Shown piece after piece: positions 5,330 through 26,143 of a stretch of 64,000 nucleotides of DNA. Positions within the stretch are counted from its first letter, which is position 1. Each line of letters starts with the position of its first letter. Source of the stretch: Bdellovibrio bacteriovorus (lineage in GTDB: Bacteria > Bdellovibrionota > Bdellovibrionia > Bdellovibrionales > Bdellovibrionaceae). The DNA lies in the NCBI RefSeq assembly GCF_001592745.1, contig NZ_LUKD01000006.1, positions 1 through 64,000 of the forward strand. The letters run 5' to 3'. The notes beneath the pieces were generated by a model that worked only from the letters and a program-made list of their open reading frames with translations, was not told the origin of the DNA and made no database searches. The translations under genes were made by a program, and so were the position numbers.

Positions 5330-5336
5330 TCTAACC

Positions 5337-6820: not shown

Positions 6821-6853
6821 GAATCGCCTTCACTATTTTCTAAGTCTCTATTT

Positions 6854-9220: not shown

Positions 9221-10265
9221 CGAAATAACCCTCGAAATCCGCCTGCGCGCGATGGAAATCCTCAAGACGTCCTATATCAACCCAATAATCTTTCAGCTTG
9301 AAGCAACGGACCAGATTGTCCTCTTTCTTTAGTACGGTAAAGAGACTTGGCATATCAAAGAACTGCCCCTGCGGAACGTGAGTCAACGCTTCTGGAGAAA
9401 GAATGTAAATACCCGCATTTACGAAAGTCAGCTCTTTGGGTTTCTCTTCAATAGAAAGAATCTTATCGCCGTCAACCTTCACAACGCCGTACGGAATTTC
9501 CACATAGTGCTCACGCACTGCCATTGTCGCGGCCGCCCCCGTAGAAACGTGTGCATCCAACATTTCGGCAAAATTAGCTCGCGTTAAGATATCGCCATTC
9601 ATAACAAAGAAAGGCTCTTGTGGTTTATTTTTCAACATCGAAAGCCCGCCGCACGTCCCCAGAGGAGTGTCTTCGTGAAGATACTCGATAGAGACTCCCC
9701 ACTTTTCGCCATCCCGGAAATGCTCTTGAATCATTTCAGCACGATAGTTCACGACAAAAACAAACTTATGGAAGCCCAGCTCGCTAAAGCGTCGAACAAT
9801 AGTCTCTAAAATAGGACGTCCGCCGACTCTTAGTAAAGGCTTTGGCATATTGTCCGTCAAAGGGCTTAAACGTTTTCCAAAGCCGCCGACCATTAGAATC
9901 ACTTTATTGTTGCGCTTAATAAGACCTAAAAGCTCATCTGAACCTTCGATACGCACGATGCGGCCGTTGTTATCCAAGACAGGCAGATGACGAATATTCC
10001 ACTGACGCATCTTTGCGAGAACTTCATTTTTCGGTACACCTTCACCGATCGATTTAGGCGTGCGGTTCATAAATGTCTCGATTTGTTGATCCATTTGCGC
10101 GGACTTCAACAAAGCACGGCGGATATCGCCATCCGTTAAAGCGCCAACCAACCGACCATCTCTATCTACAACAAAGCAGATCTGCAGAGAGTTTTTATCA
10201 ATAATCTCCATGGCGCGACGAAGAGTGTCTTGTGGCGAAACGAAAATATCGGATGTAGCCTTCAT
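9213..10265 (-). CDS. ptmE: Glucosamine-1-phosphate guanylyltransferase (PtmE) with CBS pair
   Basis: This 350-residue protein has two CBS domains (about residues 1-115) fused to a sugar nucleotidyltransferase domain (about 118-350). The pyrophosphorylase loop reads GGFGKRLSPLTDNMPKPLL. In the legionaminic acid pathway PtmE makes GDP-glucosamine from glucosamine-1-phosphate, which commits the sugar to the GDP-linked route rather than the UDP route of pseudaminic acid. The CBS pair may sense an adenine nucleotide. The gene starts 17 bases after legG and ends in an 8-base overlap with ptmF. Confidence 0.85.
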   Translation of the reverse strand: MKATSDIFVSPQDTLRRAMEIIDKNSLQICFVVDRDGRLVGALTDGDIRRALLKSAQMDQQIETFMNRTPKSIGEGVPKNEVLAKMRQWNIRHLPVLDNNGRIVRIEGSDELLGLIKRNNKVILMVGGFGKRLSPLTDNMPKPLLRVGGRPILETIVRRFSELGFHKFVFVVNYRAEMIQEHFRDGEKWGVSIEYLHEDTPLGTCGGLSMLKNKPQEPFFVMNGDILTRANFAEMLDAHVSTGAAATMAVREHYVEIPYGVVKVDGDKILSIEEKPKELTFVNAGIYILSPEALTHVPQGQFFDMPSLFTVLKKEDNLVRCFKLKDYWVDIGRLEDFHRAQADFEGYFGG

Positions 10266-10282
10266 ATAAACCCCAAGTATCC

Positions 10283-11449
10283 TTAAATTTTATAGTCAAA
10301 GAACATTTTTTTCGGGAAAGATTTAAATTCGATCCGCTGAAGAATGTTCATCATCTTGTCAGCGGCATTCCCACTTCCGTAGACAGAAAATGATCGTGCT
10401 CCATTTTCTTGTTTAAACTTCAATGCAGCATCCATAGCTTTGGCAATTTCATTACTTTTCCCATCAACATTAAAAACCGACGCAGCCATCTCGCGACCTT
10501 TTTGCCTGTCTCCAATGTTGACTGTTGGAGTACCCAAGGCCGGTGCTTCGATAATACCGCTCGAGGAATTTCCCGCGACAACAGAGGCAAGATTTAACAA
10601 AGATAAATAGCGCTTCATTCCCAAAGAATAAACATAGGCCGTCGTTTTTGGATGGTGACTTACAAAAGAGTCAATTGCTTTGTGAATTTCTTCGTTACCG
10701 TGATCTGCATTAGCGCGCGTAAAAACAACTGTTGTGTTACCTTCTTTAATTTTTTCATCCAGCACCGTTAAGAGAGCCGCCACCTGTTCACGGTCTTTTT
10801 CCGGGTTCAATGTCTCGGGATGATAGGTAACTGCAATAACTCGCTCCTGAAGCGTAATTCCGAGACTTGCCTCGAGCTCTTCTTTGGAAAGTAACGGAAT
10901 CTTTTTGATATTATCCACACCCAACGCGCCAACATCGTGCACCCTATCTGGAGCTTCCCCTAATGAAAGAACACGCTCGCGATATCTTGAAGATGCCACA
11001 AAATGGATATAAGAAAGCTTCGTGATACAGTGACGGTAAGCCTCATCTAATGCTCCTTCGGTCACTTCTCCGCCGTGCAAATGGACGAGAGGAATTCCCA
11101 AACCGTTACAAGCAATAGCGAAAGACAATGCTTCGTATCTGTCTCCCAAAATCACGGCGACATCAGGCTTATCCTGGGCCAAAGCCTTCGCAAATCGTAC
11201 TAACGAGTTCCCCATAATACCGAGATGTGAAACCTCTGAAGAATCATTCATATCGATTTTAATTTGATAATAAGGCTTAAACCCCTGAGATATGATTTCC
11301 TGAACCGTCTGACCGTGTTCTTCCAGTAAATGCGTTCCCGTTACAAAAAGACGCAATTCGAATCCGCTCTCTTTCTCCAAGCGCTCAATTAACGGCGTCA
11401 GAATTCCGTAATCCGCTCTAGTACTAGTAAATACGCAGATCTTAGTCAT
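10283..11449 (-). CDS. legG: Hydrolysing NDP-sugar 2-epimerase (LegG/NeuC family)
   Basis: LegG removes GDP and epimerises C2 of the 2,4-diacetamido-2,4,6-trideoxy sugar. The start at ATG 11449 gives 388 residues beginning MTKICVFTSTRADYG, the family-typical N-terminus. Upstream in-frame starts reach into legI. AGGAG lies 13 bases upstream, rather far, but the start overlaps the legI stop by 8 bases, which suggests coupling. The HLHGGEVTEGALDE segment and NSSSGIIEAP near the C-terminus are signatures of UDP-GlcNAc 2-epimerase-like enzymes. Confidence 0.87.
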   Translation of the reverse strand: MTKICVFTSTRADYGILTPLIERLEKESGFELRLFVTGTHLLEEHGQTVQEIISQGFKPYYQIKIDMNDSSEVSHLGIMGNSLVRFAKALAQDKPDVAVILGDRYEALSFAIACNGLGIPLVHLHGGEVTEGALDEAYRHCITKLSYIHFVASSRYRERVLSLGEAPDRVHDVGALGVDNIKKIPLLSKEELEASLGITLQERVIAVTYHPETLNPEKDREQVAALLTVLDEKIKEGNTTVVFTRANADHGNEEIHKAIDSFVSHHPKTTAYVYSLGMKRYLSLLNLASVVAGNSSSGIIEAPALGTPTVNIGDRQKGREMAASVFNVDGKSNEIAKAMDAALKFKQENGARSFSVYGSGNAADKMMNILQRIEFKSFPKKMFFDYKI

Positions 11450-12449
11450 GGATAAGTTCATTCTCCTGGTAATCGCGCGAAGACTTTTGCCCAATGAACT
11501 CATACCAGCGCATAGGTGATACACCTGAGCCCGGTCTACGTGTTGTTAGATTTTCAGAGGTAAAGACTTCTCCCGCCTTAATGGCTTTTTTTGCGACTAA
11601 AGACTTTCGAGCGACAGCTCGATTCTTCAATTCGCTGTCCGTGGGTCTTTTTTCGCTTCGGCCTAGCGCTTGGTTGATATTGCGAATGGCTTCAACCATA
11701 GCTTTCAGCTCAGCAGGCTCTAAGGAGGCTTTGTGATCGGGGCCTGCAGCGTTACGATCTAATGTAAAATGTTTTTCAATTACTTTTGCTCCAAGAGCTG
11801 TCGCGGCTATAGGAACTTCTATTCCCATGGTATGATCCGAATAACCAAAAGAAACGTTCAGCCTTTCGCCCAAAGTCTTCATCGCACGCAAGTTCACGTC
11901 AGACATTTGCGTAGGATAGTCCGTATTACAGTGCAGAACTGTGATTTTCTCCAACGGAAGTCCCACGCCTGTGAGAACTTTGATCGCAGCTTGAACTTCA
12001 TCAAAATCTGCCATTCCGGTAGAGACAATAACAGGTTCACCTCTTCGTCCGATAATCTCAAGATAAGGAAGGTTGGTTATTTCTCCGCTAGGAACTTTCC
12101 ATTGCCCCATGTTCAGAGTTTCGAGAAATGCCAGACTTTCAAAATCAAATGCCGTAGACAAAAAACGAATATTTCTTTTTCGACAATGTTCAATAAGAAC
12201 ATAGTGATCGTCGTAGCTCAGCTCCAGTTTTTTGAGCATGTTTAACTGTGATTGCTCTTCGCCGAGATTTCGCTTCTGATATTCAGCCATCACAGCAGAT
12301 TCGGTAACGAGATTCTTGGCTTTGAAAGTCTGAAACTTAACAATATCCGCACCCGCATCGACTGCGACATCAACAAGTTTTAATGCAGTCGCCAGGTCTC
12401 CGTTATGATTGACACCAGCTTCCGCTATGATGAGAGTTTCATTATTCAT
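11442..12449 (-). CDS. legI: Legionaminic acid synthase (LegI/NeuB family)
   Basis: This 335-residue enzyme condenses the released 6-deoxy-diacetamido-mannose with phosphoenolpyruvate to make legionaminic acid. The NeuB barrel begins IIAEAGVNHNGD and includes VKFQTFKA; the barrel segments KVPSGEITNLP and HCNTDYPT are clear. A C-terminal antifreeze-like SAF domain (about 275-335, RKSLVAKKAIKAGE) closes the active site. The start overlaps legH by 8 bases. NeuB and PseI homologues share these motifs, so assignment to legionaminic acid rests on the neighbouring legB, legC, legH, legG and ptmE. Confidence 0.88.
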   Translation of the reverse strand: MNNETLIIAEAGVNHNGDLATALKLVDVAVDAGADIVKFQTFKAKNLVTESAVMAEYQKRNLGEEQSQLNMLKKLELSYDDHYVLIEHCRKRNIRFLSTAFDFESLAFLETLNMGQWKVPSGEITNLPYLEIIGRRGEPVIVSTGMADFDEVQAAIKVLTGVGLPLEKITVLHCNTDYPTQMSDVNLRAMKTLGERLNVSFGYSDHTMGIEVPIAATALGAKVIEKHFTLDRNAAGPDHKASLEPAELKAMVEAIRNINQALGRSEKRPTDSELKNRAVARKSLVAKKAIKAGEVFTSENLTTRRPGSGVSPMRWYEFIGQKSSRDYQENELIHD

Positions 12450-13032
12450 AACTCACCTTATGGAATACTCCTGCGCTTAATACAGAGTTCGCTGCAACTT
12501 TGAGCCCTTCTTTAAGAACGGCATTACTGCCGATAAAGCTTCCTTCTTGAACGTTGCAACCGCCATTAATTACGGCTGCTGTTGAAACATGACAGTGACT
12601 GCCAACAACCGAATCGTGTTCAATCAAGGACTTTGTATTGACGATACAATTAACGCCTATGATCGCGTTCGCATTCACGAGGGCGTCATGAAGAACAATA
12701 GTTCCCTCACCGATTGAAGCTGATGCGGAAACATAAGCTCGCGGCGAAATCACAGTTGCAAGTTGGGCACCAAGATTCACAAGTTGTTGAAAAATCTTTT
12801 TACGCAACTGCGGCGTTTTAATCTGCCCCACCGTTATTAAAAAAAATGTTTCTTTATTGATATACTTGGGCAAATCCGCGTCCGTTCCAATTATGGGAAC
12901 GCCATTCAACGTAGATCCTACCTTCTCGGCCAGATCAAAGATACCGCGAATGTTAAAGACACCAGTCGCTCGAATAACGTCGATACAGGAAGCACAATGG
13001 CCTCCCGCCCCTATGAGATAGAGATCTTTCAC
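12442..13032 (-). CDS. legH: Sugar O/N-acetyltransferase (LegH/PglD/NeuD family)
   Basis: This 196-residue left-handed beta-helix acetyltransferase has an N-terminal Rossmann-like domain with LIGAGGHC and hexapeptide repeats from about residue 90 to the end. The catalytic His is in IEHDS. PglD and LegH acetylate the 4-amino group made by the upstream aminotransferase. Its start overlaps legC by 4 bases and its end overlaps legI by 8. NeuD-type O-acetylation is an alternative, but the position between legC and legI favours LegH. Confidence 0.82.
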   Translation of the reverse strand: MKDLYLIGAGGHCASCIDVIRATGVFNIRGIFDLAEKVGSTLNGVPIIGTDADLPKYINKETFFLITVGQIKTPQLRKKIFQQLVNLGAQLATVISPRAYVSASASIGEGTIVLHDALVNANAIIGVNCIVNTKSLIEHDSVVGSHCHVSTAAVINGGCNVQEGSFIGSNAVLKEGLKVAANSVLSAGVFHKVSYE

Positions 13033-14171
13033 GAATGCCTCACACTGCTTGGAATATTAACGATCCGATCAGCCAGCGATCGAGCGACGGTCAAATCTTC
13101 ACTGTATGCAGATTTATACATGGGTAGGTCCGGCATAAGATTCCAAACCGGTCTGGTCATCACACCTTGACGATTTGTCTCATGCAAAAAGGCATCTCTT
13201 TCTTTTCGGTCGCTTAAAAGAATAGCGTTCAGCCAATAATTGGATTTTGCCTTCTCAGGTTCGACAAAAAATTGAATGCCTTTTTTCTCGAAAAACTGCC
13301 TATACATCTCAGCCGTCGCTCTTTTGTTTTCCACAAAAAATGGAAGCTGCTCTAACTGACCGACAATCAGTGCCGCGTTCAAGTTAGGCATACGATAGTT
13401 GAAACCGATCTCGTCATGGAAAAATTCCCACGCGTGTGGAACCTTTGCCGTTGTCGTTAAATGCTTGGCTCTCTTCCCCAGGGCCTCATCATTTGTAACC
13501 AACATCCCGCCGCCACCGGAGGTTATAATTTTGTTTCCATTAAAACTGAAAACTCCGATTTTACCAAAAAGACCTGTATGAACCCCGTTATAAAAACTCC
13601 CGAGAGACTCGGCAGCATCTTCGATAACGGGAACGTTATAGGAATCGCAGATCTTTACAATGTCTTCAATTTTTACGGGATGACCAAAGACGTGCATGGG
13701 TAGACAAGCCATAATCCGACGCCCTGTCTTCTTATTATAGCAAACACCTGCTCTGACTTCCGCATGAGATTCTAGAAACCTATGCAGAGATATCACTGAC
13801 AGCCCTAGAGTTTCGGCGTCGCTGTCGAGAAAAACAGGATGAGCTCCACAATAAGAAATAGCATTCGGTGTCGCCACAAAAGTCAGGGCTTGAGTCAGAA
13901 CTTCATCCCCGTGAGAAACACCTAAAAGGTGCAGAGCCGCATGTAGAGCCGAAGTTCCATTCCCCGTCACGACTGCTTTTTTTGCTCCGACGTACTTTGC
14001 GAATTCAACTTCAAAACGATCTACAAATGCGCCTACTGAAGAAACAAATGTCGAGTCAATAGCTTCATTGACGTATTTTTTTTCATTACCAGAAAAGATC
14101 GGAGCATGCAGGGGAATAAACTTTTCACCCTTATATAAATCCTGAATAAAACTAATAACGTCATTAAACAT
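13029..14171 (-). CDS. legC: PLP-dependent sugar 4-aminotransferase (LegC, DegT family)
   Basis: I start at ATG 14171, which overlaps the legB stop by 8 bases and gives 380 residues; a longer frame to 14249 runs back into legB. The DegT/DnrJ fold is clear: GNGTSALHAAL binds PLP phosphate, EDAAESLGS carries the pyridine-binding Asp, and FNGNKIITSGGGG contains the Schiff-base lysine. LegC should aminate the 4-keto product of LegB using glutamate. Confidence 0.86.
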   Translation of the reverse strand: MFNDVISFIQDLYKGEKFIPLHAPIFSGNEKKYVNEAIDSTFVSSVGAFVDRFEVEFAKYVGAKKAVVTGNGTSALHAALHLLGVSHGDEVLTQALTFVATPNAISYCGAHPVFLDSDAETLGLSVISLHRFLESHAEVRAGVCYNKKTGRRIMACLPMHVFGHPVKIEDIVKICDSYNVPVIEDAAESLGSFYNGVHTGLFGKIGVFSFNGNKIITSGGGGMLVTNDEALGKRAKHLTTTAKVPHAWEFFHDEIGFNYRMPNLNAALIVGQLEQLPFFVENKRATAEMYRQFFEKKGIQFFVEPEKAKSNYWLNAILLSDRKERDAFLHETNRQGVMTRPVWNLMPDLPMYKSAYSEDLTVARSLADRIVNIPSSVRHS

Positions 14172-15147
14172 TATAAATATCTGCCTTATACTTCGCCAGA
14201 TTCTGCTTGTCGGTGAACCACTCAATTGTTCTGCGAAGCCCTTCTTCAATTGAAACTTCAGGCTTAAAACCAGTCATTGAATGAATTTGCGTATTGTCGC
14301 ACCAGAGACGATGAACCTCGGAATTCTTGGGACGAACGCGTTCGGCATCATGAATAATCTTAACATCCGACTGCATAATTTTTTTGATCAACTCAAGGGT
14401 GTCTTTGATGGAAATTTCAAAATTCGATCCAATGTTGACAGTCTTGCCAACAGTCGCCTGAGACTTCGCCAATGCCAAGAAACCGCGGCAGGTATCTGAA
14501 ACATAGTTAAAGTCGCGTGTTGGCGTCATATCGCCCAAATTGATTTCTTTTTTCCCAGACGCAATCTGAGAAATAATAGTAGGAATCACTGCGCGTGCAG
14601 ACTGACGAGGGCCATACGTATTGAAGGGACGTGCAATTGTTAGCGGAAGATTGAAGGAGTTAAAGAAACTCATAGCCATGGCATCTGCCGCTATCTTGGA
14701 TGCACTATAAGGGGATTGAGGCTGCAAGGGATGTTTTTCATCGATAGGAACATACTGAGCTGTCCCGTACACTTCACTTGTTGATGTGTGAATAATACGC
14801 GAAACCCCTGCATCCATAGCCGCTTTACACATATTCAAAGTACCAGTGACATTAGTTTCAACATAACTTTGTGGAGCGATGTAAGAAAAGGGAATTGCAA
14901 TAAGAGCGGCTAGATGAAAAACAACATCTACATTCTTCGAAATCTCTTTGCAGAAAAAAGGATCACGAACGTCTCCCGTCACAACTTCGATGTCTTGCTT
15001 TATGGGCGAAGAATCTAACCAACCCCAGGAATTAAAAGAGTTGTATTGTGCCAATGCACGTACATCATATCCTTCGGCCACCAACATTTCAGTTAAATGA
15101 GAACCAATAAAACCATCAGCACCCGTAACAAGAACCTTTTTTGACAA
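14164..15147 (-). CDS. legB: NDP-N-acetylglucosamine 4,6-dehydratase (LegB)
   Basis: I start at TTG 15147 because GAGGTG lies 6 bases upstream and the protein then opens with KKVLVTGADGFIGSHL, the Rossmann loop. The in-frame extension to 15312 has no ribosome site. The 327-residue extended SDR has STSEVYG and YSASK, so the catalytic Ser/Thr, Tyr and Lys are present, along with the RPFNTYGPRQ and PTRDFNYV sugar-binding segments. LegB removes water from GDP-GlcNAc to give the 4-keto-6-deoxy sugar, the first step after PtmE and acetylation. It opens the twelve-gene operon. Confidence 0.86.
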   Translation of the reverse strand: MSKKVLVTGADGFIGSHLTEMLVAEGYDVRALAQYNSFNSWGWLDSSPIKQDIEVVTGDVRDPFFCKEISKNVDVVFHLAALIAIPFSYIAPQSYVETNVTGTLNMCKAAMDAGVSRIIHTSTSEVYGTAQYVPIDEKHPLQPQSPYSASKIAADAMAMSFFNSFNLPLTIARPFNTYGPRQSARAVIPTIISQIASGKKEINLGDMTPTRDFNYVSDTCRGFLALAKSQATVGKTVNIGSNFEISIKDTLELIKKIMQSDVKIIHDAERVRPKNSEVHRLWCDNTQIHSMTGFKPEVSIEEGLRRTIEWFTDKQNLAKYKADIYNV

Positions 15148-15984
15148 AACAACACCTCGCTGAGCCGCAAATCTTATCTCTGAGGAATTCTTGAGTCTAT
15201 TCAAAGGATTAAATGACTTAAAGCAATATTCTGACGTACAAAAAACTCTGCAGCTTAGTTCGCAATTGTATATAAAGAGGCTGTTGGGCGTCGCATTAAA
15301 AATGCTGAACACACCACCTTCTCAAAACCCAATTAATGCGTAATACCGATAACAAACCTCGGTGTAAAATCGACTCATTCCTGAGAGAGTGTGTACCCCA
15401 CATCATTTTTTCGACATGGTAAAGTTCTTTGTTATGTCATATTGAATTCTGCATTCACCTAAAGTCTCTAATTTTGAGCAACAACACTCCCTCACTGATG
15501 GTTGCGAAATCTTTTAAGATCTATCTACATTTACCCTGCGTCCGACTCAATCACGACGCTCGCGACCCAGCGCTTTTGGTTTAAACTAATGAACAGAACA
15601 CATCTTCCAAACAACTGGTTGAACATGCTTACAAAGCCTGAATGCATCCATTAGCAAATGAACAATAAATTTTCTATTGAAAGATCAAACGACTCGATCC
15701 ACTCAATGCCGAGACAATATCACGCATACTCGAGTTTACAACTAACTGCTCTTGCCTTAACTTTTCTAGAACATAAAAAAATAGTATTCAGCTAGTGTTA
15801 AGATTTTTTTCACTTAATTAAGTGTCGAGTAAGCAACTTCTTATAATGAATCTGGTCGCGTTCGATTTGTAGGTTTATACATCAAGCTAAATAAGGACCA
15901 TAAGAAAGATCGCCGCGCGTCATCACATCTTTAGAAAACCAACGCTAAGCATTGACTTATAATTAAGAGTACTATCACTGTGTA
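15148..15984. other. Long divergent intergenic region upstream of the leg operon
   Basis: About 840 bases lie between divergent legB and the ligase-like gene, with no convincing coding frame. It must hold the promoters of both sides, but I see no clear -35/-10 pair. A TATAAT at 15958-15963 is the best -10-like match toward the ligase gene and lacks a good -35 element. I found no ops/JUMPstart-like element. The region looks as AT-rich as the flanking glycan genes and could also contain remnants of lost genes. Confidence 0.5.
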
Positions 15985-16023
15985 ATGCTACTACAACTAT
16001 CAAATGACGGTTTTTATTTTACT

Positions 16024-17313
16024 ATGCATGAAACAAAACACAATCTGGTATCTACCCTAGCAACGATACTATTCACTCTTTGTCTTGTTGTAAGTTTGTT
16101 CTCTAGAAACCTAGGCGAGTATTCGTTCGACCTTATTATTATATTCATTATTATTGTGACGCTGGCTAAAGCAACACCTTGGTCATGGAACACCCTTAGC
16201 TATCATACGGGGTTCTATAAATGGGTATATTTTTTTTACTTTTGGATATTTTTAACGATTCTATTAAACCCTCCAATTCATGTAAAAAGTTTTGGATATT
16301 TGTTAGAGTTTCTTTGGATTCCAGCTTTGCCATTATTTGCTCGCGTACTTTCTTTGTGGCGTCCAGAAAAATTTTTTGTTCCGGCCTTTGCTATCATCAC
16401 TTCGATTTCCGTGTCCGCCATAATTGCACATTATTTTTTGGTACCAGAAAACCCTAATTTTTTTGGCTACCCAAATCGGCTCCAAGGGACATTTACAAAT
16501 ATAAATTTTTTAGCGCATTCTTATTTTTTAGTATTTCTTTTGGTATTAGGTCTGTTGGTCACGCACATTCAATCAAACCAGAGGCGCTTGGCTCTTATCT
16601 TAGGTTTTACAGCCCTAACTCTACTCTTATCCCTATTTTTGACATTTACCCGGACAATATGGATATCAGTAATACTGGCAATGCCTATTATGTGCTTCCT
16701 CGTAAACAAGAGGACTGCCCTGAGAATATTTTTAGCTTCGTGTGTAATTTTCGGAACGTTATTTATCTCGGACGCAGGAGGAACCAGGGGGCGCATTGTC
16801 CAAACTCTCTCAACAAATAAGGGCGACACGATTAGACTTACTCTGTGGAGAACTTCTCTAAAAATTTTCCGTGACAACCCCATTTTTGGAGTTGGCTATA
16901 TGAACAATAAACGGGATATCATGACGTACCTTAAAAAGTACGAGGAGCAGAATGTTACAACAGAATTTGACACACATCCGCACAATGAAATTCTATCGTT
17001 TCTAGCAGGGACTGGCCTTATAGGAACGGTTCTGTACATAGGTAACTTCGTACTCTTCTTTTTACTTGGCTTAAAATCATTTCGGTTGGTCGGCTTGAAT
17101 GAGCCGGTAAAAAGAGGACTTCTACTTGGGGCAATCACTATACAGCCAGCTTTTTTGATTGCAGGTTTCGCAGATAATAACTTCGAAATTCACGTCGCCC
17201 GCAATTGGCTGGTTATCTCCTGGGCTATTTTAATTTGGATCGCTACTGAGACCAAAACTACTATAAATATAAATATTAAAAAACTATATAGAAAACCCGC
17301 TGTCACAAGGTAA
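16024..17313 (+). CDS. O-antigen ligase/polymerase (WaaL/Wzy_C)-like membrane protein
   Basis: This protein of about 429 residues (442 if it starts at 15985) has ten to twelve hydrophobic segments. The large periplasmic loop carries NPIFGVGY and, later, HPHNEILSFLAGTGLIG, the hallmark of the Wzy_C/O-antigen ligase superfamily. Such proteins transfer polyprenyl-linked glycans to lipid A core or protein, or polymerise them. Neither possible start has a clear ribosome site. It is followed, 90 bases later, by the arabinofuranose-donor cassette, so it could act on a glycan containing that sugar. Ligase and polymerase cannot be told apart here. Confidence 0.7.
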   Translation: MHETKHNLVSTLATILFTLCLVVSLFSRNLGEYSFDLIIIFIIIVTLAKATPWSWNTLSYHTGFYKWVYFFYFWIFLTILLNPPIHVKSFGYLLEFLWIPALPLFARVLSLWRPEKFFVPAFAIITSISVSAIIAHYFLVPENPNFFGYPNRLQGTFTNINFLAHSYFLVFLLVLGLLVTHIQSNQRRLALILGFTALTLLLSLFLTFTRTIWISVILAMPIMCFLVNKRTALRIFLASCVIFGTLFISDAGGTRGRIVQTLSTNKGDTIRLTLWRTSLKIFRDNPIFGVGYMNNKRDIMTYLKKYEEQNVTTEFDTHPHNEILSFLAGTGLIGTVLYIGNFVLFFLLGLKSFRLVGLNEPVKRGLLLGAITIQPAFLIAGFADNNFEIHVARNWLVISWAILIWIATETKTTININIKKLYRKPAVTR

Positions 17314-17403: not shown

Positions 17404-18819
17404 ATGAAACATTTCATTGTGTGTGATCTGGACGACTGCCTCTTAAAAACAGACTTGCTATACGAACAATGGCTTGTACTGCTTAAATCAAAGCCTCTGG
17501 TATTTTTGGCAAGCCCATTCTGGCTCATTTATGGCAAGGCGCACTTTAAGACGAAACTTGCACAGCACGTTCCGCAGACTCCACACCTCGTTCCCCTTAG
17601 AAATGACGTTGTCACTTATTTGAAGGAACAACGCGATCTAAATAAGTGTGACTTGATACTCGCCTCGGCTAGTCCCTATGTTTGGGTAAACGAGATCTCT
17701 CAACGCTTAGACCTTTTTAGCCACGTTATTGGAAGTGACGCAAACACAAACCTAAAGGGTCTACAGAAGTTGAATGCGATTAAAAGCTCCATAGGCTCAA
17801 CACCGTTTTCGTACGTGGGCGATGCTTTCGCTGATCTAGCCATCTGGCGCGAATCGACAGAAGTCGTTGCTGTAAATCCTTCAAAGGCTTTACAGCATCA
17901 GATTGCAAAGTTAAATAAGCCAACAACCATTCTCAAAGACGAAACAAAACCCACTTGGAAGTTGCTTGCCAAGCAGATTCGGCCGCATCAGTGGATAAAA
18001 AACATCTTAGTTTTTTTACCTGCCTTGGCTGGACATAAATTCTTAAATTATCAAACTATACTTCTAGGCTTATTGGCTTTCGCTGGATTTAGTCTGGCTG
18101 CTTCTTTCGTCTATGTTTTGAATGACCTTCTTGATCTAAAATCCGATAGAAACCACCACACTAAAAAATATCGTCCCTTCGCTTCTGGCGATCTTAAGAT
18201 AAAATGGGGAGTTCTACTCTTATCCTCCCTTTTACTCGGAGTTGCTTTAATTTCATCGTATTTGCCGATTCAATACTCTGGTTGGATAATAACTTATCTT
18301 ACACTCAATCTCGCTTACTCATTTTATCTTAAACAAAGTGTCGTTGTAGATATCTTAATTCTATCTATGATGTACACGCTGCGCATCTTTGCTGGGTCAG
18401 CGGCAACAAGCGTTCCCGTTTCAGAATGGCTGTTAAGTTTTTCAACCTTGTTTTTCTTCAGCCTCGCCTGCGTGAAACGGTATACGGAGATTATACGCAG
18501 TAAAAATAAGATCACTCTGGACGGAAGAGGCTACCGACAAATTGACTATCCCATGGTTCAGGGGTTGGGAGTTGGGTCAGGGCTCTTATCAGTTTTAATA
18601 GTCTTGCTCTACCTTCAAAGCAGCGATGTTAGATCTCTTTATAGCACTCCTCAAAATCTTTGGTTCACCACGCCAGTACTGTTATTCTGGATCTCTCGCA
18701 TCTGGATATTGACCAATCGCGATGAGATCCACGACGATCCTGTTGTCTTTGCCGTTAAAGACAAAATTAGTTGGATTTGTTTGGCAATACTAGGTCTTGT
18801 ATTCGGGACAGCTTTGTAA
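17404..18819 (+). CDS. HAD phosphatase fused to UbiA-family polyprenyl-phosphate phosphoribosyltransferase
   Basis: The 471-residue product has two parts. Residues 1-180 form a HAD phosphatase with DLDDC (Asp8, Asp10) and GDAFAD (from 139). Residues 190-471 form a UbiA membrane domain with IRPHQWIKN and NDLLDLKSD (240-248), the Mg-diphosphate-binding motif. UbiA homologues of the Rv3806c type move 5-phosphoribose from PRPP to polyprenyl phosphate. A fused HAD could then remove the 5-phosphate, giving polyprenyl-phosphoryl-ribose. The DprE1- and DprE2-like genes that follow directly support this. The stop overlaps the next start by one base (TAATG). The order of reactions is inference. Confidence 0.8.
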   Translation: MKHFIVCDLDDCLLKTDLLYEQWLVLLKSKPLVFLASPFWLIYGKAHFKTKLAQHVPQTPHLVPLRNDVVTYLKEQRDLNKCDLILASASPYVWVNEISQRLDLFSHVIGSDANTNLKGLQKLNAIKSSIGSTPFSYVGDAFADLAIWRESTEVVAVNPSKALQHQIAKLNKPTTILKDETKPTWKLLAKQIRPHQWIKNILVFLPALAGHKFLNYQTILLGLLAFAGFSLAASFVYVLNDLLDLKSDRNHHTKKYRPFASGDLKIKWGVLLLSSLLLGVALISSYLPIQYSGWIITYLTLNLAYSFYLKQSVVVDILILSMMYTLRIFAGSAATSVPVSEWLLSFSTLFFFSLACVKRYTEIIRSKNKITLDGRGYRQIDYPMVQGLGVGSGLLSVLIVLLYLQSSDVRSLYSTPQNLWFTTPVLLFWISRIWILTNRDEIHDDPVVFAVKDKISWICLAILGLVFGTAL

Positions 18820-20123
18820 TGGATTATCCGAGCTGGGGTTTTTACCCCGTTATAAAAAATCAAAGTGTTTACACTGTGCCAAGCCGAAATGCACAGATTC
18901 CTTCATTTGGTTCCTCCAGCCTACCTCGGGGGCTAGGTCGCTCTTACGGGGATTCATGCTTAAATGAAGACGGTACTTTATTGCTATCCAATCAATTAAC
19001 CCACTTTATCTCCTTCGATGAAAATACAGGCATACTCCGCTGTGAGGCCGGAATAAGTTTCGATGAAATTCTTCAGTTTGCTGTCCCTCGTGGATGGTTT
19101 CTCCCCGTCACTCCAGGCACAAAGTTTGTGACTGTTGGCGGAGCTATCGCCAACGATGTTCATGGAAAGAACCATCATCGCGCAGGGAATTTCGGGCATC
19201 ATGTTTTATCGTTTGAACTGATTCGTTCAACAGGTGAAAGAATAGTTTGCTCACGTAGCAGTCATAGTGATTTCTTTTTCGCTACGATTGGCGGGTTGGG
19301 TTTGACGGGATTAATAACCTGGGCTGAGTTTCGACTCACGAAAATTCTTTCTTCTTCAATCACCCAAGAACAAATCCAATTCAATTCCTTGAGTGAATTC
19401 TTCGTACTGTCAGAACAATCAGAGAAAGAATTTGAGTTCACTGTATCTTGGGTTGACTGCGTAACTGACAGCAAAGACGTGCGTGGGATCTTTATTCGCG
19501 GAAATTATTCCGACTCTGCTGAATCTAATAGTCTTTCAGTGCACAAAACAGAAACATTTAAAAACATTCCACTGTTTTTTCCCGATTGGATCTTAAATAG
19601 CTTTTCGATACGCGCATTCAACGAACTTTATTATCGAAAAAATCTTACTTCCCGCAAAAGGAATATTGTTCACTACGAGCCGTTTTTTTATCCGTTGGAT
19701 TCTATCTATAACTGGAATAAAATTTACGGAAAAAGGGGCTTCTTGCAATACCAATTCGTCATCCCATATAAACAAGATGCGGGTGCAGCTCTCAAAGAAA
19801 TTTTCAATCTACTTAAGAGAAGCCAAATGGGGTCATTCTTGGCGGTTTTAAAAACATTTGGCTCCATTCCGTCGGAAGGATTACTCTCTTTCCCGAAAGA
19901 AGGCGTAACACTTGCACTTGATTTTCCAAATCATGGAGAAACGCTTTACAGAACGCTCGAACAGTGTGATCAGATCGTTCGTTCCGTGAAAGGTGCTGTA
20001 TATCCAGCGAAAGACGCTCGTATGAGCAAAGAAAGTTTTGCGGAGTTCTATCCCCGAATCAATGAATTTGAAAAGTATATTGATCCGAATTTTTCCTCTA
20101 GCTTCTGGAGACGTGTAAAATGA
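18819..20123 (+). CDS. dprE1: DprE1-like FAD-dependent polyprenyl-phosphoryl-ribose 2-oxidase
   Basis: I start at ATG 18819, overlapping the previous stop by one base, giving 434 residues. The VAO-type FAD-binding region includes GLGRSYGD (38-45) and VGGAIANDVHGKNHH (ending near 120), matching DprE1. Lys398 in AKDAR corresponds to the substrate-binding Lys of mycobacterial DprE1. The residue aligned with the benzothiazinone-target Cys387 of the tuberculosis enzyme appears to be Ala366, within LALDFP. The enzyme should oxidise C2 of polyprenyl-phosphoryl-ribose. Its end overlaps the DprE2-like start by 4 bases. Confidence 0.84.
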   Translation: MDYPSWGFYPVIKNQSVYTVPSRNAQIPSFGSSSLPRGLGRSYGDSCLNEDGTLLLSNQLTHFISFDENTGILRCEAGISFDEILQFAVPRGWFLPVTPGTKFVTVGGAIANDVHGKNHHRAGNFGHHVLSFELIRSTGERIVCSRSSHSDFFFATIGGLGLTGLITWAEFRLTKILSSSITQEQIQFNSLSEFFVLSEQSEKEFEFTVSWVDCVTDSKDVRGIFIRGNYSDSAESNSLSVHKTETFKNIPLFFPDWILNSFSIRAFNELYYRKNLTSRKRNIVHYEPFFYPLDSIYNWNKIYGKRGFLQYQFVIPYKQDAGAALKEIFNLLKRSQMGSFLAVLKTFGSIPSEGLLSFPKEGVTLALDFPNHGETLYRTLEQCDQIVRSVKGAVYPAKDARMSKESFAEFYPRINEFEKYIDPNFSSSFWRRVK

Positions 20124-20857
20124 AAAAAATCCTAGTCATCGGTGCCACTTCAGCGATAGCGCAAGAAGTAGCTAAATTGTACGCGACGGAGAAAGAAGAG
20201 CTGATTCTTTGGGGCCGCAACCCCCAGATGCTTCAAATTATTGCTCAAGATCTTAAAGTCAGAGGAAGCTCAAAAATTTCTGTCGTAAGCCATGATCTAA
20301 ATGACCTTTCAGTACATGCTTCAAAAATAGAAGAAATTTGGAGTGAACATATCAATATAGATATCGTATTCTTAGCTCACGGTGTTTTGGGAGATCCTAG
20401 AAAAGCCGAAATTGATCAAGATGAAATGTTAAATATTTTAACTAGCAATTTTATTTCTCACGCCTCTTTATTAACCTATATTGCACAGAAAATGGCGCGA
20501 CAGACCTTCGGCACTATCGCTGTCATTTCCTCTGTCGCCGGTGACAGAGGAAAGCAATCAAACTATGTCTATGGCTCTGCCAAAGCTGGCATGACTGCAT
20601 TTACGGATGGCCTAAGAAATCGTCTGTACCCTACGGGGGTGCACGTACTCAATATCAAGCTTGGCCCTGTAGACACCCCGATGACGAAAGATCACAAAAA
20701 AACGCCTTTGTTCGGGAAAGCACCTGCTGTAGCTAAGGGAATAGTGACGGCGATAGAAAAAAAGAAGAACACCGTCTATTTAACTCCTATCTGGCGTTTG
20801 ATCATGTTCATCATTAATAACATTCCAGAGACAATTTTTAAGCGCCTTAAACTTTAA
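20120..20857 (+). CDS. dprE2: DprE2-like SDR, keto-sugar reductase of the arabinofuranose donor pathway
   Basis: This 245-residue SDR has a GATSAIA nucleotide loop (8-14), Ser138 in SSVAGDRG, and Tyr151/Lys155 in YGSAK. The stretch SSVAGDRGKQSNYVYGSAKAG closely follows the mycobacterial DprE2 pattern. DprE2 reduces the 2-keto intermediate from DprE1 to give polyprenyl-phosphoryl-D-arabinofuranose. The gene overlaps dprE1 by 4 bases. The 3' end overlaps the convergent FkbM gene by 4 bases. A hydrophobic C-terminal stretch (about 225-240) may hold it at the membrane. Confidence 0.83.
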   Translation: MKKILVIGATSAIAQEVAKLYATEKEELILWGRNPQMLQIIAQDLKVRGSSKISVVSHDLNDLSVHASKIEEIWSEHINIDIVFLAHGVLGDPRKAEIDQDEMLNILTSNFISHASLLTYIAQKMARQTFGTIAVISSVAGDRGKQSNYVYGSAKAGMTAFTDGLRNRLYPTGVHVLNIKLGPVDTPMTKDHKKTPLFGKAPAVAKGIVTAIEKKKNTVYLTPIWRLIMFIINNIPETIFKRLKL

Positions 20858-21711
20858 GGGGCCTTTTCAACAGGGAAAAAGAATAGATCAAAGTACTTGT
20901 TTGTTCCAGATTTCTCTCTCAAGGCTTCTCTGGCGCTATCTAAGGAATATGATTTTTCTTCGATAGGATCAAAAACCATATAGTCAAGCCCCTCGAAGTT
21001 CTTAAAAATATCTCGGTCTCCACCGATATTAACGGTATTGCACTCCACAAGAACTACGGGTCTGTACTTACGCAGACTCTTCGTCGCCCCCTTAAGGACA
21101 TCGAATTCATGCTCTTGAACGTCAATCTTAATTAGATCTACTTGCTTTAGACCGCGATCAGATACAAACCTATCCACAGTTGTAAGTTGAACATTCACTT
21201 GCTCTAGCCCTGTCTGCCCACCAGGAATACTCTCCTGATTGAGTGAATTACCCCCATGATTCTCGGAGTCCAGATAAAGTACGCCACTGCCAACGTCACC
21301 AGAAACCGCATATGGCAAAATTTCAATATTAGATATTCTGTTGCTCACCACGCTGGCAGTAAGACATTCCCTAGCATTTTCATCTGGATCGAACGCGTAA
21401 GCTTTTATTTCCGAACTTTGCATTGAGGCTACGATAGAGAAAATTCCAATATTCGCACCGATATCAAGAAAAACACCCTCTTGCCCTAAAACTTTTTTAA
21501 TAAACTTTTGATTGTAAGGCTCGTAACTGGAAACACCCCAGTGCATTAAATGGTATGAGGGCCCGTACAGATCGCCCAAGAAAAGATAAAATTTCTTGCC
21601 CTGATATTTTACGTACGCAATCCCCTTTGACTTAATTCCAAACGACCGCTTAATCCAGCGTGGCTTGTTGAATTGAAGTAAGAGAAAATTACGAACGGGC
21701 TCTAAAATCAT
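20854..21711 (-). CDS. FkbM-family SAM-dependent methyltransferase
   Basis: This 285-residue protein contains the FkbM methyltransferase core: VFLDIGANIGIFSIVAS is the SAM-binding motif, AFDPDE the acidic motif II, and IKIDVQEHEFDVLKGA the family-typical segment. FkbM proteins O-methylate sugars and polyketides; here a surface glycan is the likely substrate. It is convergent with dprE2. The adjacent minus-strand glycosyltransferase gene ends 139 bases upstream, so the two may share transcription. No substrate can be assigned. Confidence 0.8.
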   Translation of the reverse strand: MILEPVRNFLLLQFNKPRWIKRSFGIKSKGIAYVKYQGKKFYLFLGDLYGPSYHLMHWGVSSYEPYNQKFIKKVLGQEGVFLDIGANIGIFSIVASMQSSEIKAYAFDPDENARECLTASVVSNRISNIEILPYAVSGDVGSGVLYLDSENHGGNSLNQESIPGGQTGLEQVNVQLTTVDRFVSDRGLKQVDLIKIDVQEHEFDVLKGATKSLRKYRPVVLVECNTVNIGGDRDIFKNFEGLDYMVFDPIEEKSYSLDSAREALREKSGTNKYFDLFFFPVEKAP

Positions 21712-21850: not shown

Positions 21851-23380
21851 TCATCTGCATTTATAAACGGCAAAAAATTCAGTATTTCGTTCGAAAACGT
21901 ATGCCGATTTAAACGCACTTTTAAATTGATCATCAAACAACGGCTTTTCAGTATAAAAGCTCAAGATGCTCCAAGGCTCTTCCCCTTTCGGAAAAACAAA
22001 ATAGGAGCGACAAGACTTTATTTCCGCTATCGTAGAATCCGGAATACTTATACCTGACGCTGCCATGTCCATCAGAGCGGCGCCGTCTAGAAGCATTCCC
22101 TTATTACGACCAATTAACGCGGATTTATAAAAAGTGGATTCATAGGTTTTGTTTCCCGCGAAACCTAGTTCAACATTACCTGGTAAAGACGTCGCTAGGT
22201 TCAAAAGATCCGAGAACTCTCTTTCTCGCACGGATGTTTGTGCAAGAAATTTAGCAATTTGTTTTTGTCTGTTAACGCCGTTAATAGCTAGCGTTAACAA
22301 AAACGCAGCAGCGAAAAGATGAAATCTTGAACGCCCCAAAGAATCCATTGAAAAATATTGTTGGATGGCCAACCACAATATTAACGGAACAAAGGGTAAA
22401 AAATGATGCTGACCCGCTCCCGGCTTACTTGCAACGACGGCGACCAAGAACGATACGACACACAAAGCGATAAACGAGAGCTTAAATTTTTCGTTAAAAC
22501 GCGAAAAATACAAAAATAATAAAAAGCTCGCAACAAAGCTAATATTCTTTAAGAAAATTTCAAGTACCAATCCATGTTTTGATGCCATTTGAAGCCACAA
22601 CAAATAATTCTCAGCTCCAATGTTAGGTAATAGAAAGGGCATCACGAGCGCACAAAGAAATGCAATCGCCGCCAACAGAATTTTGGTCCAATATCGTCGG
22701 AATCTATAAGTTTCAAAAAAATAAACTGCGACGGGAACAAAATAAAGGCATGCATGAAGTTTACTATTAGCAGCCAAACCAGCTAATAATCCTACAAGTA
22801 GAGAAGTCCCCCAGAAACTGATTCTAGGCGCGAAGCTCACAACCGTGAAGGCACAAAATAAATTAGCCATGATATAACTATCAGGACGATTCCAATAACT
22901 GAAATTGTAGTATCCCAAGAGAGCAAGAGGAATAACGCAAATACTTAATAGTTTCTGAAAAGCCGAGCCTTTGATCTTCGTGCTTAAAATATAAGTGCAG
23001 CCTACTAACAAGAATAGGTTGATCACACCCGGCAACTTCGCCGCTAAAATCATATTACTGATAAGCGATTGAAAAAAAGCCACGACCAAATACGGCCAAG
23101 GACCGTATAACAAAGAATATCTCGATGGCGCACTTAATTCTGTGTAGATCTCAAGCCCCTTTCCATAAAGGGCTCCCACAGATGCAATATTTGCTTCCGC
23201 ATGGTCGAAGATCAATGGCGTGAACAAATAGCCTAAGCTCGTTAGGAGCAACCATCCGCACCCTATAAGCAGAGCCCCCTTCAATAGAAAATCCAACGTC
23301 CTAGAGACGACATGAAATTTTTTGAAATAATAGCCGACGATCACAAACAATAAAAAATTGATAAGGAGTGATGAGATCAT
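21851..23380 (-). CDS. GT-C-like polytopic membrane glycosyltransferase
   Basis: The 509-residue product has about twelve hydrophobic helices and a soluble C-terminal part. After the second helix a short loop reads FDHAEANIAS, with acidic residues where GT-C enzymes keep their metal or catalytic Asp/Glu. A conserved-looking PGAGQHHFLPF segment precedes later helices. GT-C enzymes use polyprenyl-phosphate sugars on the periplasmic side. Because the polyprenyl-phosphoryl-arabinofuranose cassette lies 1 kb away, this is a candidate user of that donor, but similarity to known arabinosyltransferases is not visible by eye. Confidence 0.55.
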   Translation of the reverse strand: MISSLLINFLLFVIVGYYFKKFHVVSRTLDFLLKGALLIGCGWLLLTSLGYLFTPLIFDHAEANIASVGALYGKGLEIYTELSAPSRYSLLYGPWPYLVVAFFQSLISNMILAAKLPGVINLFLLVGCTYILSTKIKGSAFQKLLSICVIPLALLGYYNFSYWNRPDSYIMANLFCAFTVVSFAPRISFWGTSLLVGLLAGLAANSKLHACLYFVPVAVYFFETYRFRRYWTKILLAAIAFLCALVMPFLLPNIGAENYLLWLQMASKHGLVLEIFLKNISFVASFLLFLYFSRFNEKFKLSFIALCVVSFLVAVVASKPGAGQHHFLPFVPLILWLAIQQYFSMDSLGRSRFHLFAAAFLLTLAINGVNRQKQIAKFLAQTSVREREFSDLLNLATSLPGNVELGFAGNKTYESTFYKSALIGRNKGMLLDGAALMDMAASGISIPDSTIAEIKSCRSYFVFPKGEEPWSILSFYTEKPLFDDQFKSAFKSAYVFERNTEFFAVYKCR

Positions 23381-23557: not shown

Positions 23558-25225
23558 TTAATCGAATAATAAATTCCCGTACGCTTCTTCGGAAAATACT
23601 GAATCTATGACGGCCTTGTCTACCAGCTCGACCGACGGACGTTTACAAACAGTGTCCAAAAAGCGGTAATACTCATGATGTACATTGATAAATTTTGTTA
23701 AAACGCTCGGTAAACAGTACAGCGGCTTATCATGGGAAGTCCTTGCGATTTCCTTCGCGAGTTCGCCGTTTTTAACGTTTAAGGACTTGATGAACACAGG
23801 GACTCTTCCGTAAATCATGCGCTGTGATTCGCTCAACGAGGAAAATCTGAATCCGTCATTTCTTTCTCCCTTGGATGAGAAGAAGTCGTCACTAAAAACA
23901 TGCTTTTTGTAAAATGAGATCGTCATGGCAGGCTTATGATCACCGAAAATTACAAATATGACTGGCCGACTGTTCTTTTGCGCCAATTCATAAACTTGTT
24001 TTTGAAATCTTAAAAACTCTTTTAAAGATTTTTCTAACTTAGCCTTGTAATCGCCCTCTCCCCCATCATCCTCCACCTCTTTGTAGGGGCCATGCGTATG
24101 AATAGTAATAAGAAATGCGAATGTGTTCTTTTTCCCATCAAGATTAGATTTATACTGTTTCAGTGCACTTTCGAACAAAATGTCGTCTTCAGGGGTCACC
24201 GATAAATCCGGCCAGTTCATCTCTTCTAAGAAAATAGACTTCTGAAAACCAAATTTAGGGTGAACTAAATCCCTGCGCCAAAAGAAACCTTTGTTGTTAT
24301 GAGCAGAAAAAGATGAGTATCCATTTTTTACGAATACTCGTGGAAGCCCCATGGCTTCATGTGAGTAACTTTCTGCAAAGTACTGAAAATCAATCCCTTT
24401 ATATCTTTGACTTGGAAGACCAGTCAAAACTTCAAACTCTGCCTCCGCTGTCATTCCACCATATACCGGGGAAATCATTGTGGATCGTTCGAAGCCCTCT
24501 TTTTCTAATTCAGCCATTGGAGTTACAAACTTCGACGAAGAACTCGTATAGCACGATTCACACAAAATCAAAAAAACATCAGGCTTTAAAGGAGCATGTG
24601 GCGAAACTGCTATCTGTCTTTCACCTAACCGAGCAGGTCCTTTAGCTGGAATCTGCCCCATCGGAAGGGTTAAAAACACATGATTTAAGATGCCATTTTC
24701 TTTGATGTTTGTTGCAAAATTCCAATCGACGTAATGAACCTTGGCGAGAGAAAAAAGAAAGCTGATCGGGTTGCTCGTACTTTGTGTGGGATTACGTTCC
24801 TGTACACATGACGTTGTCACAAGCAACACGGCCGGTAAGAAGGCCAATTGACGCTTTCGCAGTGCAAATCCTTTAACAAAACAAAATACCAGCCCAATTC
24901 CAAGAGCGGGAATCAGAAAATCCGTGTAACCTTTCAAAAAAAAAGCCTGCTTCCAAGCAAAAATATCCGAAGCCTCAAAGGCCGTATTCGTGTGCGACAT
25001 TTTCATTATGTGAACTCTTAACAGAATTGATTCGATCAAAAAGACAGTTATAGCCGAATAGTAAGGTCGCAAAACTATCAAAAAGGAAAAGTAAAGTAGC
25101 CATGGAAGAATTAATTTGGATGGTAAAATATATCCGAACACTATCCCCTGTAAAGACAAGCTTAAGATACTAAGAAGTACTAACCCTAAGGGGGACTGAT
25201 ATTTACAATGCCATCTCATTTCCAT
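23558..25225 (-). CDS. LtaS-type phosphoglycerol transferase / sulfatase-fold envelope enzyme
   Basis: The 555-residue protein has about five N-terminal membrane helices (to residue 138) and a periplasmic sulfatase-fold domain (about 210-500). The metal site and nucleophile of the LtaS/MdoB group are present: Glu223 in LCESCY, Thr259 in GGMTAEAEFE, then SAHNNKGFFWRRD and FGDHKP. The enzyme should transfer phosphoglycerol or phosphoethanolamine to a cell-surface glycan. It is the last gene of the glycan region. Sulfatase activity is less likely because the nucleophile is Thr in the LtaS context. Confidence 0.8.
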   Translation of the reverse strand: MEMRWHCKYQSPLGLVLLSILSLSLQGIVFGYILPSKLILPWLLYFSFLIVLRPYYSAITVFLIESILLRVHIMKMSHTNTAFEASDIFAWKQAFFLKGYTDFLIPALGIGLVFCFVKGFALRKRQLAFLPAVLLVTTSCVQERNPTQSTSNPISFLFSLAKVHYVDWNFATNIKENGILNHVFLTLPMGQIPAKGPARLGERQIAVSPHAPLKPDVFLILCESCYTSSSSKFVTPMAELEKEGFERSTMISPVYGGMTAEAEFEVLTGLPSQRYKGIDFQYFAESYSHEAMGLPRVFVKNGYSSFSAHNNKGFFWRRDLVHPKFGFQKSIFLEEMNWPDLSVTPEDDILFESALKQYKSNLDGKKNTFAFLITIHTHGPYKEVEDDGGEGDYKAKLEKSLKEFLRFQKQVYELAQKNSRPVIFVIFGDHKPAMTISFYKKHVFSDDFFSSKGERNDGFRFSSLSESQRMIYGRVPVFIKSLNVKNGELAKEIARTSHDKPLYCLPSVLTKFINVHHEYYRFLDTVCKRPSVELVDKAVIDSVFSEEAYGNLLFD

Positions 25226-25392: not shown

Positions 25393-25411
25393 AAACAAAT
25401 ATAGTTTGTTT
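25393..25411. promoter_or_regulatory. AT-rich inverted repeat upstream of the tail-collar gene
   Basis: AAACAAA and TTTGTTT flank TATAG, 51 bases before the tail-collar start. It could be an operator or a weak hairpin in the leader. Only symmetry supports it. Confidence 0.3.
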
Positions 25412-25462
25412 TTGGAGAAGCCGACTTTTAGCATTTTTCTACAAAAGAAAAGGAGTTCTTTT

Positions 25463-26143
25463 ATGTCAAAAAAAATCGTTTTTATTTCAATTCTTGCCGT
25501 CTGCTTCCTTGGTTTTAAAGGTAAAGACAGCTTCAAAACGTTGGGTTTAAAGTTTTCAGCACCAACTGTATTTGGGAAAACCAACGTAACTAACCCAGAA
25601 CCAGGAGAAATCGTTTATGACTCATCGGATAATAAATTCTGGGGTTACGATACGTCTAACAACTGGGTTGAACTAAGCAGTGGATCAGCGATCGTACCCG
25701 TCGGCGTGGTACTACCGTTCGGTGGCACTACTCCGCCAAATGGCTATCGCTTTGCAAATGGCGACCTTCTTAATATTGCTGATTATCCAGATTTATTTGC
25801 TGCTATTGGCACGGCATTCGGTGGTGACGGCGTATCGACATTCCGCCTACCAGATCTTCGTGGCCGCTTTTTACGTGGCGTTGATGGTGGCACAGGAAGA
25901 GATCCAGATGCTGGCAGCCGTTCAGCTATGAACACTGGTGGTAATGCCGGTAATGCGGTGGGTTCAATTCAAGCCGATCAGTTACGTTCACATACACATA
26001 GTTTCACTGTTGGCCTGTCTGGTGGCGGTACGGTTCCAGCGAATGGAGCGGGTAGCTACGTTTCCAATACGACTTCTGCAGCTGGCGGCAGCGAGACTCG
26101 TCCTGTTAATGCTTACGTAAACTTTATCGTAAAAGTAAACTAA
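25463..26143 (+). CDS. Secreted phage tail-collar-domain protein
   Basis: The start at ATG 25463 follows AAAGGAG by 7 bases, giving 226 residues with a signal peptide (MSKKIVFISILAVCFLG). A middle part holds a GEIVYDSSDNKFWGY segment common in fibre-like proteins. The C-terminal half is a phage tail-collar domain: PVGVVLPFGGTTPPNGYRFANG, FRLPDLRGRFLRG, an HTHSF, and TRPVNAYVNFIVKV at the end. In phages this fold caps trimeric tail fibres. In predatory bacteria, fibre-like proteins with such tips act as surface adhesins, so prey contact is a plausible role. No other phage genes are nearby. Confidence 0.8.
   Translation: MSKKIVFISILAVCFLGFKGKDSFKTLGLKFSAPTVFGKTNVTNPEPGEIVYDSSDNKFWGYDTSNNWVELSSGSAIVPVGVVLPFGGTTPPNGYRFANGDLLNIADYPDLFAAIGTAFGGDGVSTFRLPDLRGRFLRGVDGGTGRDPDAGSRSAMNTGGNAGNAVGSIQADQLRSHTHSFTVGLSGGGTVPANGAGSYVSNTTSAAGGSETRPVNAYVNFIVKVN

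Follow-up and report, generated by a model that had tools for sequence, protein, structure and literature searches.

In a 64,000-nucleotide stretch of the Bdellovibrio bacteriovorus genome (the window; G000:C6:1-64000), we identify a three-gene cassette that very probably makes the lipid-linked sugar polyprenyl-phosphoryl-D-arabinofuranose from phosphoribosyl pyrophosphate (PRPP) and polyprenyl phosphate. The genome comprises 3.76 Mb in 12 contigs and is reported to be 99.99% complete. D-arabinofuranose is a rare sugar, best known from mycobacterial walls and as the product of the pathway to which the drug target DprE1 belongs. The cassette lies on the plus strand at 17404–20857 and encodes a 471-residue HAD-UbiA fusion (17404–18819), a DprE1-like oxidase (18819–20123) and a 245-residue DprE2-like reductase (20120–20857). 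These open reading frame (ORF) coordinates agree with an initial annotation of the same DNA, which described three tightly joined genes with overlaps of 1 base (at 18819) and 4 bases (20120–20123). A promoter scan found no more sites than in shuffled sequence.

From the genes, their homology, conserved residues, predicted folds, gene order and co-occurrence, we infer the reactions, the lipid chain, flipping, transfer and the acceptor. In a first step, the fusion, read as a polyprenyl-phosphate 5-phosphoribosyltransferase joined to a phosphoribose phosphatase (PPPRS), would convert PRPP and polyprenyl phosphate to polyprenyl-phosphoryl-ribose. In a second, by homology, the DprE1-like enzyme would use flavin adenine dinucleotide (FAD) to oxidise C2 of the lipid-bound ribose, and the DprE2-like enzyme would use NAD(P)H to reduce the ketone to the opposite configuration, giving D-arabinofuranose. 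The carrier is probably undecaprenyl. This core route from PRPP through polyprenyl-phosphoryl-ribose to the arabinofuranose donor was also proposed in the initial annotation, and homology, retained residues, folds and gene order support it.

Identity of the cassette proteins

The fusion exceeds the curated cut-off of NCBIfam model NF006088 (545 bits, E 1.4e-163; cut-off 351), and in a sequence search of the PDB its only matching entries are those of Rv3806c, the Mycobacterium tuberculosis phosphoribosyltransferase. Its structure was modelled with AlphaFold2, with a predicted local distance difference test (pLDDT) score of 89.6; this model and that of a second protein discussed below were fed by few sequences (16 and 6, respectively). 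In the model, residues 184–471 (17953–18816), which include the motif NDLLDLKSD at 18121–18147, form a UbiA-fold domain that superimposes on PRPP-bound Rv3806c (8j8j) with a Z-score of 28.9 and a root-mean-square deviation (rmsd) of 2.7 over 282 residues, whereas the next UbiA protein scores a Z of 20.4. Residues 1–180 (17404–17943) are predicted to adopt a HAD phosphatase fold (Z 14–17.6, with SerB-like proteins at 14–15 and 3fvv at 17.6), and the HAD residues D8 (the nucleophile), D10, K122, D140 and D144 are invariant in 16 relatives. A Pfam search of the fusion gave no HAD match at E ≤ 1e-3 and named UbiA alone, and thus the HAD assignment rests on the predicted fold. Together, the NF006088 score and the two modelled folds bear out the fusion identity given in the initial annotation, and a fusion of like design has been shown to make a ribosyl lipid (PMC11127046), in line with the suggestion that a single protein could make polyprenyl-phosphoryl-ribose.

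The residues with which Rv3806c binds PRPP and lipid have been listed previously (PMC10994848), and 11 of the 12 contact residues are identical in the fusion: R193, K199, Y237, N240, D244, K254, R257, Y305, K310, Y324 and K358 correspond to R22, K28, Y70, N73, D77, K87, R90, Y138, K143, Y157 and K191, the exception being N302 in place of Q135. The initial annotation had named a non-ribosyl UbiA pocket as an observation that would speak against its reading, and the pocket instead keeps these 11 contact residues of the ribosyl-transferring Rv3806c. This comparison is discriminating, as equivalents of five of the residues (R22, Y70, K87, Y157 and K191) are missing from a UbiA-family paralogue encoded elsewhere in the genome.

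The oxidase is 434 residues long when read from the ATG at 18819, and a TTG-started frame of 450 residues is also present. It matches the DprE1 model NF053785 with an E of 5.7e-107 and the DprE1 structure 4aut with an E of 1e-73, compared to 3e-8 for the next non-DprE1 chain in the PDB, and it contains equivalents of DprE1 Y60, H132, K134, Q334, Q336, K367 and K418. The reductase matches the DprE2 model NF053786 (E 5.5e-59), passes the cut-off of NF005489/PRK07102 (284 bits against 267) and finds its best PDB match in DprE2 (21gq_C, E 5e-31; next match 1e-13); its SDR triad, S138-Y151-K155, is invariant in 55 relatives. Catalytic and substrate residues are conserved over 60 relatives of the oxidase and 55 of the reductase. 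With DprE1 and DprE2 as the nearest PDB relatives and the HAD, oxidase and SDR residues and 11 of the 12 UbiA-pocket residues retained, the identities and the conserved motifs reported earlier for these proteins hold up. The cysteine of DprE1 that reacts with benzothiazinones, C387, is replaced by A366 in the oxidase and by alanine in 54 of 60 DprE1-like proteins (that of the window and 59 relatives). By analogy with known DprE1 pharmacology, this alanine should prevent formation of the covalent benzothiazinone adduct.

Distribution and gene order

Among 148 relative genomes, the fusion is found above cut-off in 16, of which 14 also have a strong DprE1 match. These are the only strong DprE1 matches in the set (p about 1e-17, ignoring phylogeny), and outside the 16 fusion genomes there are two weak matches only (E 5e-40 and 1e-33). 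Within the genus, the fusion occurs in 9 of 24 genomes, in 7 of them with DprE1. Across named species genomes we count at least 573 fusion relatives, including members of Pseudomonadota, Myxococcota, Chlorobiota and Planctomycetota, so that the "few Gram-negative loci" of the initial annotation is far too low an estimate. At least 36 of the best 80 fusion relatives in species genomes are accompanied by both partners. Where all three genes share one locus, fusion, DprE1 and DprE2 follow one another in this order and on the same strand in 42 of 44 cases across phyla, with gaps of less than 300 base pairs in 34. In some relatives' loci, a GtrA-family gene lies between the fusion and DprE1, an independent hint of lipid flipping. 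A search of a phage collection for copies of the cassette gave one partial match only.

In trees made by a quick method, the DprE1 proteins of the genus form one group with a support of 93. The closest relatives of the two largest cassette proteins differ: the fusion is nearer to that of locus L041 (83% protein identity versus 72% for L037), while the oxidase is nearer to that of L037 (82% versus 70% for L041). These split affinities suggest recombination near 18800, as judged from protein identities. Two genus fusions (L038:9130-10551 and L040:9054-10457) stand without DprE1 and DprE2, the latter adjoining an NAD-epimerase-family gene, and these genomes may add ribofuranose or xylofuranose instead. 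In another locus, a gene for an AAA_14/DUF4143 ATPase (L036:10568-11833) sits between the fusion and DprE1. Shorter fusion-related proteins of about 330–390 residues with several predicted helices, all from one family of the order (L019–L022, in genomes G128, G116, G112 and G124), score well below the cut-off and are possibly a different membrane phosphatase.

A candidate transferase and its setting

Downstream of the cassette, a 509-residue protein encoded on the minus strand at 21851–23380 has no Pfam or NCBIfam family match, and its AlphaFold2 model (pLDDT 81) has a predicted glycosyltransferase-C (GT-C) fold. The nearest solved fold is ArnT (E 3.6e-6, Z 17.9, rmsd 6.0 over 432 residues at 10% identity), and the model matches the arabinosyltransferases EmbB, AftA and AftB with Z-scores of 11–12, a level that other GT-C enzymes reach equally. 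Residues D59 and E62, which follow the first long helix, as well as R87, R165, H269, H325 and H326, are invariant even when distant homologues are included. The DxxE pattern (D59 and E62 here, D31 and E34 there) is the sole likeness seen to Citrobacter ORF12, a GT136 enzyme.

Strong relatives of this protein are found in exactly five genus genomes, including its own, all five of which have the cassette, compared to 7 of the 24 genus genomes overall (p 5e-4, ignoring phylogeny; a weak match in G016, E 1.5e-6, was excluded from the count). In L037 and L041, the GT-C gene is the convergent neighbour of DprE2; L034 has two copies close to the cassette. In the window, one gene separates it from the DprE2-like gene: an FkbM-family methyltransferase (20854–21711, minus strand; TIGR01444, E 1e-28), which is convergent with the DprE2-like gene, overlaps it by 4 bases and is not at the equivalent position in L037 or L041. 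On the strength of the modelled fold and this co-occurrence, we lean towards the protein at 21851–23380, which falls outside the coordinates of the initial annotation, as the likely arabinosyltransferase. In a third step of the pathway, less firmly placed than the first two, a protein encoded elsewhere would flip the lipid, and this GT-C protein would attach arabinofuranose to an acceptor in the periplasm, for which the surface polysaccharide of the surrounding locus is the likeliest candidate.

Directly upstream of the cassette, a Wzy_C protein of the O-antigen ligase/polymerase superfamily is encoded on the plus strand at 15985–17313 (PF04932, E 7e-24). Seven other genus loci also have homologues of it close to the fusion. 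Further upstream, a minus-strand run at 4115–15312 includes LegB, LegC, NeuB, NeuC, WbuX and HisH, all above NCBIfam cut-offs, and by these matches is a legionaminic-acid-type nonulosonic acid pathway with a WbuX/HisH/HisF-like amidotransferase module. Part of the legionaminic gene set also occurs in G007, and none of it was seen beside the other cassettes read, whereas the GT-C family is. Together, the nonulosonic-acid genes and the Wzy_C context favour a surface polysaccharide as the acceptor.

Beyond the GT-C gene, 23558–25225 encodes a membrane protein of the sulfatase/LTA-synthase-like type (PF00884), 73% identical to a cassette neighbour in L037, which could add a phosphoglycerol-type group. 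A lone 245-residue protein encoded at 25406–26143, beside the sugar locus, bears the phage tail collar domain PF07484.

Weighing the alternatives

Several observations weigh against the pathway as drawn. The residue replaced by N302 in the fusion, Q135, belongs to the ribose site, where it contacts ribose O3. Both redox enzymes miss the curated equivalog cut-offs: the oxidase scores 358.7 bits against 500 for NF053785, as does every DprE1 relative among the 148 genomes in falling below that value, and the reductase 199.8 bits against 250 for NF053786. Strict filing as DprE1 and DprE2 equivalogs was therefore dropped; we use the names DprE1-like and DprE2-like and base the assignment on homology, residues and operon context. 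No flippase was recognised in the cluster from the ORF lists, and a family search found no GtrA protein in the genome. Searches for the SMR and LPG_synthase_TM families returned two proteins and one protein, respectively, elsewhere in the genome and none near the cassette, and an in-cluster flippase was rejected as a candidate. The cassette, described at first as complete, is complete for the lipid donor only, with no flippase recognised in the cluster and the likely transferase at 21851–23380. A literature search found no glycan chemistry for this bacterial group. Finally, the GT-C family is missing from two genus genomes that carry the cassette, G008 and G015, and G361, a distant genome, encodes two GT-C homologues but no fusion.

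In view of these last cases, the link between the GT-C family and arabinofuranose is not a strict one, and the family's exclusivity to fusion genomes fails outside the genus, in G361. They also make it a real possibility that arabinosyl transfer falls to a different membrane protein, such as one whose gene lies elsewhere, although the position of the GT-C gene next to DprE2 in L037 and L041 and near the cassette in L034 and the restriction of its strong genus relatives to cassette genomes argue for the protein at 21851–23380. More tentatively still, this protein could found a new D-arabinofuranosyltransferase family of the GT-C type, present in one genus and in distant homologues and decorating a surface polysaccharide, with sister species that lack DprE1 and DprE2 using ribofuranose or xylofuranose.

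It is unlikely that the donor is instead used to glycosylate proteins, for instance pilin or flagellin. The products of legionaminic-acid genes can end up on flagellins, and the Wzy_C proteins count protein O-ligases among their members. Pilins of Pseudomonas paraeruginosa bear D-arabinofuranose by way of a related pathway and the transferase TfpW (PMC12369383). Against this, an unsystematic search of the ORFs around the cassette turned up no recognisable pilin gene, the cassettes of relatives are set among Wzy_C and other polysaccharide genes, and the fusion that has been characterised contributes to an O-antigen (PMC11127046). The pilin acceptor offered in the initial annotation finds no supporting evidence in what is a polysaccharide and nonulosonic-acid locus.

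Synthesis of another lipid-linked pentofuranose, with the DprE1/DprE2-like pair acting at C3 (giving xylofuranose) or inactive (leaving ribofuranose), appears quite improbable. The sub-threshold equivalog scores, the genus fusions without DprE1 and DprE2, one of them beside an NAD-epimerase-family gene, and the existence of xylofuranose and ribofuranose versions in Citrobacter (PMC11127046) are consistent with it, but xylofuranose loci hold a single GalE-like epimerase while DprE1/DprE2 homologues track arabinofuranose (PMC11127046), and both proteins here keep their catalytic residues. A reading of the UbiA domain as an ordinary prenyltransferase of aromatics or lipids, beside FAD and SDR enzymes of unrelated chemistry, is hardly credible: Pfam names UbiA alone, and UbiA, FAD_binding_4 and SDR are broad superfamilies, but this identity is largely refuted by Rv3806c being the best sequence and structure match, by the retained PRPP and polyprenyl phosphate residues that differ in the UbiA-family paralogue, and by a three-gene order that is constant across phyla.

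Relation to known pathways

When compared to the mycobacterial decaprenyl-phosphoryl-arabinose pathway (Rv3806c, Rv3807c, DprE1, DprE2, Rv3789 and the Emb/Aft proteins), the proposed series of reactions is the same, and homology covers the UbiA domain, the oxidase and the reductase. The differences are that the phosphatase is a fused HAD domain here and the separate protein Rv3807c in mycobacteria, that the lipid here is probably undecaprenyl, that DprE1 Cys387 is an alanine, and that the candidate transferase, at 509 residues, does without the large additional domains found in Emb proteins.

A closer precedent for the fusion is Citrobacter, whose HAD-UbiA fusion was shown in 2024 to make farnesyl-phosphoryl-ribofuranose; the ribosyl lipid is used in the periplasm by a GT-C enzyme of family GT136, and DprE1/DprE2 homologues were noted in arabinofuranose-containing loci (PMC11127046). 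The three-component system of Citrobacter youngae O1 and O2 consists of ORF15 (the UbiA-type enzyme PPPRS), ORF14 (a flippase) and ORF12 (GT136) (PMC11127046). Common to both are an N-terminal HAD domain fused to an ORF15-like PPPRS, a nearby GT-C protein, here by predicted fold, and a surface-polysaccharide locus. Unlike the window, with its DprE1/DprE2-like pair, O1 has no epimerase and O2 has the GalE-like ORF13, and no flippase gene was recognised in the cluster here. The pilin arabinosylation of P. paraeruginosa (PSPA7_6245-6251 and TfpW; PMC12369383), known for longer than the Citrobacter system, likewise combines, in a Gram-negative bacterium, a UbiA-type enzyme and a D-arabinofuranose donor pathway with a GT-C transferase. 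Its PPPRS is not HAD-fused (PMC11127046), and its acceptor is pilin, for which no gene was recognised here. ArnT, the lipid A transferase that uses undecaprenyl-phosphoryl-Ara4N, differs from the proposed GT-C enzyme in that its donor is aminoarabinose, made by a different route.

The donor pathway is thus already known and widespread, and the candidate GT-C family is the sole new element; what is gained is breadth for a known pathway and one new candidate enzyme. The locus supplies natural DprE1 homologues with alanine at the cysteine attacked by benzothiazinones, together with a candidate arabinosyltransferase. The presence of an intact donor operon that is patchy among species of one genus suggests variation of surface antigens by gain and loss of a sugar.

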